Source: Alkalisalibacterium limincola (GTDB taxonomy: Bacteria > Pseudomonadota > Gammaproteobacteria > Xanthomonadales > Xanthomonadaceae). Taken from it: DNA of 64,000 nt. Location of the stretch: NCBI RefSeq assembly GCF_008017755.1, contig NZ_VRTS01000003.1, positions 248,001 to 312,000 on the forward strand, written 5' to 3'. The notes beneath the pieces are model-generated. The model saw only the letters and a program-made list of their open reading frames with translations, had not been told where the DNA came from and did not search any database. Positions 6,779-59,833 of the stretch are shown piece by piece. Both the position numbers and the translations under genes were made by a program. Each line of letters opens with the position of its first letter. Positions within the stretch are counted from its first letter, which is position 1.

Positions 6779-9148
6779 TCAATGCGGCCAGGTCCACTCG
6801 CGGATCGCGGCCTTGTCCACGCCGTACTCGTGCGCGTGGCGGCGGCAGTCGATCTGCTCGTCACGCAGCTTCTCCTTGACGTGGGCCCCGGTGGCGGCCA
6901 GCTGCGGCACCCGGTTGATGGCTTCGATGGCGAGGCTGAACCGATCGATGTTGTTCTCGATCGCGAGCTCCATCGGGGTGTTGATGCCCCCGCGCTCCTT
7001 GTACCCCCGGACGTGAAGGTTGCCGTGGTTGGTCCGACGATAGGCGAGCCGGTGGATCAGCCACGGGTAGCCGTGGAAGTTGAAGATGATCGTCTTGTCG
7101 CGCGTGAACAGCGAGTCGAAGTCGGCATCATCGAGCCCGTGGGGGTGCTCCTCGCGTGGCGTCATCCGGAACAGGTCGACCACGTTGACGAAGCGGATCT
7201 TCAGCGCCGGGAAGTGCTCCCGGAGCAGGGCGGTGGCCGCCAGCGCCTCCAGGGTGGCGATGTCGCCGCAGCCGACCATGACCAGGTCGGTTTCGCAGCC
7301 CTGGTCGTTGCTTGCCCAGTCCCAGATGCCGATGCCCTTGGTGCAGTGTCGTATCGCGGCCTCCATGTCCAGGAACTGCAGGTGGTCCTGCTTGTCGCAG
7401 ACGATCACGTTGACGTTGTCATGGCTGCGCAGGCAGTGGTCTGCCGTGAACAGCAGGCAGTTGGCATCCGGTGGCAGGTAGATGCGGGCGACTTCCGGAC
7501 TCTTGTTGACGACGATGTCCAGGAACCCCGGGTCCTGGTGGGTGAAGCCGTTGTGGTCCTGCCGCCAGACGGTGGACGTGATGAGCAGGTTGACCGAGGC
7601 CACCGGCGCGCGCCACGGCAGGTCCCTGCACATCGCCAGCCATTTCGCGTGCTGGTTGTACATCGAGTCGATGACATGCACGAAGGCTTCGTAGGTGGCG
7701 AAGAGGCCATGGCGGCCGGTCAGCACATAGCCCTCCAGCCAGCCTTCGAGCGTATGTTCGGAAAGGATCTCCATCACCCGGCCCTCCGGGTCCAGGTGGC
7801 CACCGTCGGCGTCCTCGGGAAGCATGCCGTCGAGCCAGAACTTCCCTGACGCCTCGTAGACCGCATCGAGCCTGTTCGAGCTGGTCTCGTCGGGCCCGAA
7901 GAGTCGGAAGTTGCCCGGATTGCGCTTCATGATGTCGCGCAGCATCTCCCCCAAGGGCCGCGTGTTCATCGCCCGCAGCGTGGCGGGGGTGCCTGCCGCC
8001 ACCGCGTAGCTGCGGAAGTCGGGCATGCGCAGGTCGCGACGCAGCAGGCCACCGTTTGCATGCGGGTTGGCGCCCATGCGGCGGGTGCCGCGCGGAGACA
8101 GTTCGCGCAGGGCAGGGACGAGGCGCCCGTGGTCGTCGAACAGCTCCTCGGGTCGGTAGCTGCGTAGCCAGTCCTCCAGTGCACGCCGGTGTGCCTCGTT
8201 TCCGCGGGCATCCTTGAGTGGAACCTGGTGGGACCGCCAGGAGCCTTCGACCTTGTGCCCGTCGACCTCCTTGGGCCCGGTCCATCCCTTGGGCGAGCGC
8301 AACACGATCATCGGCCAGGTCGGTCGCGTCACTTCGTCCGTCTGCCGGGCCTGCTGCTGAATCGCACGGATCCGTGACAGGCAGTGGTCCATCGCCTCGG
8401 CCATCTGCCGATGCATATCCATCGGCTCGCTGCCCGACACCATGATGGGTTCCCAGCCATAGCCACGCAGCAGGCTGACCAGCTCTGTTTCCGGTATGCG
8501 CGCCAGCACCGTGGGGTTGTTGATCTTGTAGCCGTTGAGGTGCAGCACCGGCAGCACGGCGCCGTCGCGCTTCGGGCTCAGGAACTTGTTCGAATGCCAG
8601 GCGGTGGCCAGCGGTCCGGTTTCCGCCTCCCCATCGCCGACCACGGCGACCACCAGCAGGTCGGGATTGTCGAAGGCCGCGCCAAAGGCGTGCGAAAGGC
8701 TGTAGCCCAGCTCGCCACCCTCGTGGATGGAGCCGGGCAGCTCCGGCGTGCAGTGGCTGCCGAAGCCTCCCGGGAAGGAGAACTGCTGGAACAGGAGCCG
8801 CATGCCTTCCTCGTCCTCGCCCTTGTCGGGATAGGTCTCGGAGTACGCGCCTTCCAGGTACACCGGCCCAAGCACGCCCGGCGCGCCGTGTCCGGGGCCG
8901 GCAATGAAGATCGCATCGACATCGTGATCGCGAATCAGGCGGTTGGTGTGCACGTAGACGAACGACAGCCCGGGGCTGGAACCCCAGTGCCCCAGCAGGC
9001 GCTGCTTGATGTGTTCAGGCTCGAGCGGTCCACGCAGCAGGGGATTGTCCTGCAGGTAGATCATGCCCACGGCGAGGTAGTTGCAGGCGCGCCAGTAGGC
9101 GTCCAGCGCGTCCAGCTCCTGCTCGTCGATCGATGTGCCGTTGCTCAT
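6779..9148 (-). CDS. xfp: Phosphoketolase (xylulose-5-phosphate/fructose-6-phosphate)
   Basis: Thiamine-diphosphate enzyme that cleaves xylulose 5-phosphate (and often fructose 6-phosphate) with phosphate to acetyl phosphate plus a shorter sugar phosphate. The 789-residue length is normal. Recognisable segments are [18 protein letters not shown] near residue 53, AGPGHGAPG near 83, the ThDP motif [10 protein letters not shown] near 169 with NKF 15 residues on, and [11 protein letters not shown]. The ATG at 9148 follows AAGGAGAG. It overlaps the TGA of the upstream acetate kinase gene by four bases (ATGA), so the two are translationally coupled. Together they turn sugar phosphates into acetate and ATP without carbon loss. 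A longer in-frame start at 9184 would lie inside ackA and lacks a binding site. Confidence 0.95.
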
Positions 9149-48400: not shown

Positions 48401-48498
48401 TCCCCTCCCCCCTCCTCTCCCTCTCCGGCGGCGCGCTCCCCAGCCCCACCTACCCGCGCGAACTCCCCAACACGCCGAAGCCCCCGCGACCCCACCTG

Positions 48499-48594
48499 CC
48501 GGGGTGTGTCGGGTAGGCCTCCCAAGAATCTTTAAAGAAAAAGCCCCCAACGGGGGCTTTTTCGATTCGGGGAGGCCTACCCGGCGCACCCCGG
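48499..48594. repeat. Nested palindrome element, copy 1 (probably also a bidirectional terminator)
   Basis: The outer arms of 25 bases (48499-48523 and 48570-48594, starting CCGGGGTG and ending CACCCCGG) pair with only two changes, both allowing G-U pairs. Inside lies AAGAATCTTTAAAG, then a perfect hairpin AAAAAGCCCCC-AA-CGGGGGCTTTTT (approximately 48537-48562), then CGATTCGG. The inner hairpin with A and T runs can terminate both the DUF1244 gene and the convergent der gene. The same core, with different arms, recurs inverted at 58527-58618. Confidence 0.75.
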
Positions 48595-48641
48595 CCCGCG
48601 AGCCAAAAACAAGCTCGCGAGAAATGTTTGCAATCAGAGCG

Positions 48642-58526: not shown

Positions 58527-58618
58527 GGCCTCGGCGCGCCGGGCTTACCCCCGAATCGAAAAATTGCTGCGCAATTTTCCTTTAAAGATTCTTGGGGTAA
58601 GCCCGGCACGCCGAGGCC
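58527..58618. repeat. Nested palindrome element, copy 2
   Basis: The outer arms of 25 bases (58527-58551 and 58594-58618, GGCCTCGG to CCGAGGCC) pair with one mismatch. Inside lie CCCCGAATCGAAAAA, an inner palindrome AAAATTGC-TGC-GCAATTTT, and CTTTAAAGATTCTTGGGG. On the opposite strand the flanks match copy 1 (48499-48594), while both the inner hairpin and outer arms differ yet remain self-complementary. It sits between the two fad genes. Confidence 0.75.
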
Positions 58619-58637: not shown

Positions 58638-59833
58638 ATGAGCAAGCAGACGCAAGAGGCCTACATCGTTGCAGCCACCCGGACGCCGGTTGGGAAGGCG
58701 CCGCGGGGTGTTTTTCGCAATACGCGGCCGATGATTTGTTGGCGCACGTGTTGCGCGAAGTGGTGAAGCAGTCGCCGGGGATCGATACCTCGCGCATCGA
58801 CGACGTGGTCGTGGGTTGCGCGATGCCGGAGGCGGAGCAAGGGATGAACGTGGCGCGGATTGGCGCGCTGCTGGCGGGGCTGCCGGATACGGTGGCGGCG
58901 CAGACGATCAACCGGTTCTGTTCGTCGGGGCTGCAGGCGATTGCGCTGGCGGCGGATCGCATCCGGCTGGGTGAGGCCGACCTGATGATCGGTGCGGGCA
59001 CCGAGACGATGTCGATGGTGCCGATGATGGGCCACAAGGTGGCGATGAATCCGAAGGTGTTCACCGACGACAACGTGGCGATCGCCTACGGCATGGGCAT
59101 TACCGCCGAGAAGGTGGCGCAGCAGTGGAAGGTGAGCCGCGAGGACCAGGATGCGTTCGCGTACGCCTCGCACCAGAAGGCGCTGGCGGCGATCCAGTCG
59201 GGCGAGTTCCGCGATGAGATCTCGCCCTTCGAGGTCGTCTCGCACCAGCCCGAGCTGGGGTCGGGGGCGATCAAGGAGTACAAGCGCCTGGTCGAGAACG
59301 ACGAGGGTCCGCGGCCGGACACGTCGGAGGAAGGCCTGGCGAAGCTGCGCACGGTGTTCGCCGCTCGCGGGTCGGTCACGGCGGGCAATTCCTCGCAGAT
59401 GTCCGACGGTGCCGGCGCGGTGATGCTGGCCTCGGAGAAGGCGATCAAGGAGTACGGCCTGACGCCGCTGGCGCGCTTCGTGGGTTTCGCGGTGGCGGGC
59501 GTGAAGCCGGAGATCATGGGCATCGGTCCGATCGCGGCGATTCCGAAGGTGCTGGCGCAGGCGGGCATCACGCAGGACCAGCTGGACTGGATCGAGCTCA
59601 ACGAGGCCTTCGCGGCGCAGGCGCTGGCGGTCATCCGCGATGTGGGGCTGGATCCGTCAAAGGTGAACCCGCTGGGTGGCGCGATCGCGCTGGGACATCC
59701 GCTGGGTGCCACCGGCGCGATCCGTGCAGCCACGATCATCCACGGCATGAAGCGCCGTCAGCACAAGTACGGCATGGTCACGATGTGCATCGGCACCGGA
59801 ATGGGCGCGGCGGGGATCTTCGAAGCGCTCTGA
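58638..59833 (+). CDS. fadA: Acetyl-CoA acyltransferase (3-ketoacyl-CoA thiolase), frameshifted near 58728
   Basis: Thiolytic last step of beta-oxidation. The protein starts MSKQTQEAYIVAATRTPVGK, and the frame breaks after RNTRP; restoring one G gives continuous DDLLAHVLREVVK. The catalytic Cys is in INRFCSSGLQAIALAADR near residue 91, the His in ELNEAFAAQALAV, and the second Cys in MVTMCIGTGMGAAGIFE at the end. The repaired length is 398 residues, normal for thiolases. It probably shares an operon with the upstream multifunctional enzyme, although the 153-base gap contains a strong nested palindrome. Confidence 0.92.

Follow-up and report, generated by a model that had tools for sequence, protein, structure and literature searches.

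A family of nine nested hairpins, all extragenic and about 95 bases long, is present in the draft genome of Alkalisalibacterium limincola. Their stems carry compensatory changes, the motif TTTAAA is invariant in all of them, and G-U pairs occur almost only on one strand, the core strand. Two of the copies lie in the window, which is the whole 64,000-nucleotide stretch of DNA that was analysed. We consider with moderate confidence that they represent a structured element, REP-like and specific to this lineage, with an inner hairpin that would serve as a bidirectional terminator at gene 3' ends, and that folding of the core strand is probably used in the spreading of the element.

Copies of the element and their shared anatomy

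The original prediction described a nested palindrome in two copies, the second in opposite orientation, and both are present in the window (Table 1). The core 14-mer AAGAATCTTTAAAG occurs there at these two places only (0.00 expected within two mismatches), and stems of at least 20 bp were seen only in element copies over the 103 kb examined. Copy 1 has a predicted fold of -86.9 kcal/mol (z = -10.9 against dinucleotide shuffles), and the same comparison gave z = -9.1 for copy 2. As had been stated, the two differences between the arms of copy 1 both leave G-U pairs, on the + strand and within arms of 26 bases. The arms and inner hairpins of the two copies had also been said to differ completely, which is not the case, as they share 61% in the 5' arm and 60% in the inner stem, against 32% expected from arm composition.

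In the whole genome, an exact pattern recovered four copies, and a fifth when one mismatch was allowed. A covariance model built on these five returned nine copies (E from 4e-22 to 2e-12), and the next-best match had E = 5.7, leaving aside the reverse strands of the same nine. The expectation of further copies with complementary arms was thus borne out, all nine being complementary. Copies c5 and c6 form an inverted pair, 78 nt apart. As c4 and c7 lie within 60 bases of contig ends (C18:204500 and C5:21328), gaps in the assembly may hide additional copies. Two of the 20 contigs end in this way, in or close to a copy, and such hairpins may break assemblies.

On the core strand the order of parts is outer arm, internal loop, GAATC/GGATC, TTTAAA, inner hairpin, GATTC/GATCC and outer arm. 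The outer stem has about 25 bp and the internal loop is small and differs among the nine copies (AA/G, A/A, G/A or a T-A pair). The middle stem has 5 bp, GAATC/GATTC or, in two copies, GGATC/GATCC, and the inner stem, of 8-12 bp, is closed by a loop of three bases, most often GCA, and usually has A-tract and T-tract flanks. TTTAAAG is the sole unpaired part that is invariant in the nine copies; the conserved core proposed earlier therefore holds for this string but not for the AA/G loop, nor for the middle stem in two copies. Conservation does not extend to the ends of the element. The string CTTTAAAG has 11 sites in 3.03 Mb, nine of them inside elements, and the remaining two (C8 and C13) are outside long hairpins.

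Table 1. Positions and gene neighbours of the nine copies, with the parts of the two window copies (window coordinates for copies 1 and 2, contig coordinates for the others)
Feature	Position	Strand	Remarks
Copy 1 (c1), entire element	48498-48595	+	DUF1244 gene (+) on one side, der (-) on the other
Copy 1, outer 5' arm	48498-48523	+	
Copy 1, AA of the AA/G internal loop	48524-48525	+	Differs among copies
Copy 1, GAATC	48526-48530	+	Middle stem, 5' side
Copy 1, TTTAAA bulge	48531-48536	+	Same in 9/9 genomic copies
Copy 1, inner hairpin GAAAAAGCCCCC-AAC-GGGGGCTTTTTC	48537-48563	+	Resembles a terminator both ways
Copy 1, GATTC	48564-48568	+	Middle stem, 3' side
Copy 1, outer 3' arm	48570-48595	+	
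Copy 2 (c2), entire element	58527-58618	-	fadB-fadA spacer, fadB on one side and fadA on the other; core strand is -
Copy 2, inner hairpin GGAAAATTGC-GCA-GCAATTTTTC	58558-58580	-	
Copy 2, TTTAAA bulge	58581-58586	-	
c3	C14:332057-332148		DAO-family oxidoreductase gene and tRNA_bind protein gene
c4	C18:204354-204445		3' of AcrB-type gene
c5	C5:18240-18327		Within hppA-ppa spacer
c6	C5:18072-18162		Within hppA-ppa spacer
c7	C5:21238-21326		Upstream of thiC and its TPP riboswitch, 45 nt from the latter
c8	C11:140545-140636		dnaE and acyl-CoA dehydrogenase gene
c9	C11:142639-142731		3' of 5'-nucleotidase gene

Covariation and pairing on the core strand

Selection on structure is strongly supported by the additional copies, their complementary arms and a covariation above that of 500 shuffles. 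Over the nine copies 98.6% of pair cells pair, in an alignment that was fitted to the structure and so somewhat favours it, with its register set by the core and its stems already visible unfitted; when the partner was slid, paired cells fell to 34.7-55%. The stems covary as anticipated, both sides having changed in 26 of the 40 pairs against 12.8 in shuffled data (none of the 500 shuffles reaches 26), and the covariation score was 0.587 against 0.200 shuffled. Mean identity among copies is 95% in the core and 59% in the arms. The arm sequences have changed yet stay complementary while the TTTAAA bulge is unchanged, which indicates conservation of the folded single strand.

The near-pairs on the core strand comprise 16 G-U and one A-C (10 columns against one, p = 0.012, this per-column value being the fairer figure since pair cells are not independent). 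One strand thus appears to be selected as a folded single strand, and the bias points to RNA or ssDNA over a symmetrical cruciform. Of the proposed selection on RNA or cruciform structure, the structural part stands and the symmetrical cruciform is disfavoured. As the orientation of the copies to the upstream gene is mixed, transcription from the neighbours does not alone explain the bias, and it is mainly for this reason that we keep in our account a stage of spreading in which the core strand is folded.

Placement at gene 3' ends and distribution

Seven copies, in either orientation, lie 22-53 nt behind a stop codon (der 47 nt, fadB 42-44 nt, DAO 45 nt, AcrB 22 nt, hppA 34 nt and 5'-nucleotidase 53 nt, with c8 at 37 nt from dnaE and 33 nt from the acyl-CoA dehydrogenase gene); the names fadB, fadA, der and ppa were assigned from sequence. 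A hairpin is found on the 3' side of hppA in all six relatives in which hppA and ppa are adjacent, mostly terminator-like with a T-run, and here the element stands in its place. TTTTT follows the inner stem in eight of the nine copies, and copy 5 has no T-tract. This T-run pairs with the A-tract, and a consensus terminator scan made no call at c1 or c2, whose T-run sits inside the stem. A plain hairpin between the convergent ppa and thiC (L039:6103-6137) resembles the A-tract/T-tract inner hairpins, and other terminator-like hairpins here are devoid of the outer stem.

Measured as far as a fixed FadA motif, the spacer between fadB and fadA has 183 nt here against 31-68 nt in several relatives. 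Among relatives it is either short or holds different hairpin repeats; G026, the closest genome by Der identity (80%), also has a different hairpin there. The empty sites compared come from other genera, not from close strains. A different hairpin repeat occupies this spacer in many genera (L069-L096), and it is apparently a hotspot for palindromic repeats. The neighbourhood of der in the relatives compared was uninformative, its gene order being different.

A search of related genomes had also been proposed, and the model search found no copy in 395 genomes of the same family, by gene content probably Xanthomonadaceae, nor in 398 of the same order, under stricter filters with which weak matches could be lost. 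Its matches in G031, G104 and G303 are long hairpins that lack the core and are unrelated, and L043 resembles a REP pair of the GTAG type. Three exact-pattern scans of viral contigs gave no match, and neither did phages; one exact pattern gave only a chance match in other GTDB genomes, the Saprospiraceae match of that scan being unstructured, and in plasmids the matches are short and confined to the terminator-like inner hairpin. A search of the window and four other element regions against Rfam gave only two tRNAs and the TPP riboswitch above the gathering score. The core string was not found in the literature searched.

Comparison with known systems and possible origin

According to the interpretation that we favour, the inner A-tract, hairpin and T-tract would act at gene 3' ends as a bidirectional intrinsic terminator or as a 3'-end barrier, stabilised by the outer stem. 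Copies may spread in a process that involves folding of the core strand by itself, as ssDNA or RNA, and the asymmetric TTTAAA bulge with its flanking 5-bp stem could be the mark recognised by a putative protein or enzyme, for which the arms would need only to pair. Parsimoniously, the element would be a REP-like structured repeat of one lineage placed as a 3'-end module, resembling a bidirectional terminator in layout and, as a strand-specific bulged hairpin, REP or IS200 ends. Several points count against this account. Copy 2 lies between fadB and fadA, two genes that a strong terminator there would uncouple. Copy 5 is without a T-tract, the consensus terminator scan passed over c1 and c2, orientation to the upstream gene is mixed, and the empty sites belong to other genera. 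Moreover, the analysis detected neither an enzyme that could move the element nor a target duplication nor an end shared among copies.

GTAG/CGTC REPs, including those of Stenotrophomonas, are also extragenic, dispersed, palindromic and repeated. However, their stems are of 6-13 as opposed to about 25 + 5 + 10 bp in the element, which with nine copies is far below the usual REP number and carries no GTAG/CGTC tag. GTAG/GGAG is absent from the 8 bases 5' of eight out of eight copies, the element ends being approximate and the flank of c7 too short. Y1_Tnp (PF01797), the domain sought for a RAYT-type transposase, has no match in this genome (95.5% complete), and five of 14 control genomes match. 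Because the GTAG tag and the Y1 transposase were both looked for and not found, we did not file the element under REP, and the proposal of a RAYT-moved REP is rejected on these two points and on the low copy number. A classical MITE, the other alternative of the original prediction, is not supported either, with no shared ends and no target duplication, the longest flank repeats (3-4 nt, at approximate element ends) being the same as in shuffles.

REPINs and BIMEs likewise form long nested hairpins, of about 100 bases, and have inverted neighbours such as c5/c6, but REPINs keep their REP ends and vary in the middle, whereas the element keeps its middle and varies in the outer arms. Integron attC sites are also folded single strands with extrahelical bases and a largely free stem sequence. 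They were rejected, as the RYYYAAC and GTTRRRY boxes are absent by inspection from the ends of the nine aligned copies, which are single elements without cassettes. The bcr1-type and ERIC repeats, extragenic and of about 100-150 bases, fold into long hairpins and are alike as structured extragenic repeats, with no sequence relation shown and no Rfam match here.

Some REP families are limited to one species, and subfamilies differ in stem residues that remain complementary, with G-T pairs as well (PMC3733652). The REPs of E. coli keep a bulge needed to recognise the single strand, and TnpA-REP is strand-specific in reading ssDNA hairpins with a bulge (PMC8266576). It is possible, although doubtful, that our element is likewise a purely mobile ssDNA hairpin similar to REP or IS200 ends, its terminator look and 3'-end site reflecting tolerated insertion only. 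The strand-specific G-U bias, the mixed orientation to neighbours, the inverted pair c5/c6, the other hairpin repeats in the fadB-fadA spacer of many related genera and the reading mode of TnpA-REP would all agree with this. The lack of a Y1_Tnp match in a nearly complete genome, of a GTAG tag and of a target duplication speaks against it, as do only nine copies with diverged arms and no recent burst. It seems unlikely that we are dealing with a mobile 3'-end module of a new class, in which a terminator-bearing hairpin would spread as a folded single strand, a putative enzyme reading the asymmetric TTTAAA bulge and the arms being free to vary provided that they pair.

It is improbable that the copies are ordinary intrinsic terminators of the lineage that gained an outer stem, their likeness being due to common origin and function without mobility. 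Bidirectional intrinsic terminators do resemble the element in the inner A-tract/stem/T-tract, as in the plain hairpin between ppa and thiC, in the place just past stop codons and in the position held at hppA. Nevertheless, the 25-bp outer stem, the conserved middle stem and the TTTAAA bulge are not terminator features, other terminator-like hairpins here do without the outer stem, and the invariant bulge, the middle stem and the copies upstream of ppa and thiC and inside fadB-fadA would be left unexplained. Template switching is a known process for quasipalindromes and could copy arm to arm without structural selection, giving arms that are near-perfect despite their divergence between copies, but it is very improbable here, since it predicts no strand bias and yet G-U accounts for 16 of the 17 near-pairs on the core strand, and the TTTAAA bulge has been neither lost nor copied across to the opposite side.

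Sequence tags and a link to RAYT transposases mark the best studied dispersed bacterial palindromes. The family described here is compact, belongs to a genome without a detectable Y1 transposase, and combines a single invariant bulge with almost perfect covariation of the arms around it. It offers a clean case for telling apart RNA-level, ssDNA-level and mutational accounts of palindrome upkeep, and suggests that terminators themselves can spread as repeats.

Some other features of this genome were observed. In the fadA gene beside c2 (window 58638-58740), the frame that opens at 58638 (MSKQTQEAYIVAATRTPVGKAPRGVFRNTRP) gives way to a different one at about 58736, which reflects either a true frameshift or an error of assembly. 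A second frameshift in a gene of fatty-acid degradation is seen next to c8 and c9, where the acyl-CoA dehydrogenase gene is split over two frames (L040 at about 7030-7080, C11:142030-142080). Finally, sequences of the type GCCTAACACCCAAGTTCAGCGGAA...GAAGTTAGACC at the ends of contigs C7, C9, C13 and C17 (L104, L106, L110, L124 and L134) look like integron attC sites and suggest a chromosomal integron.
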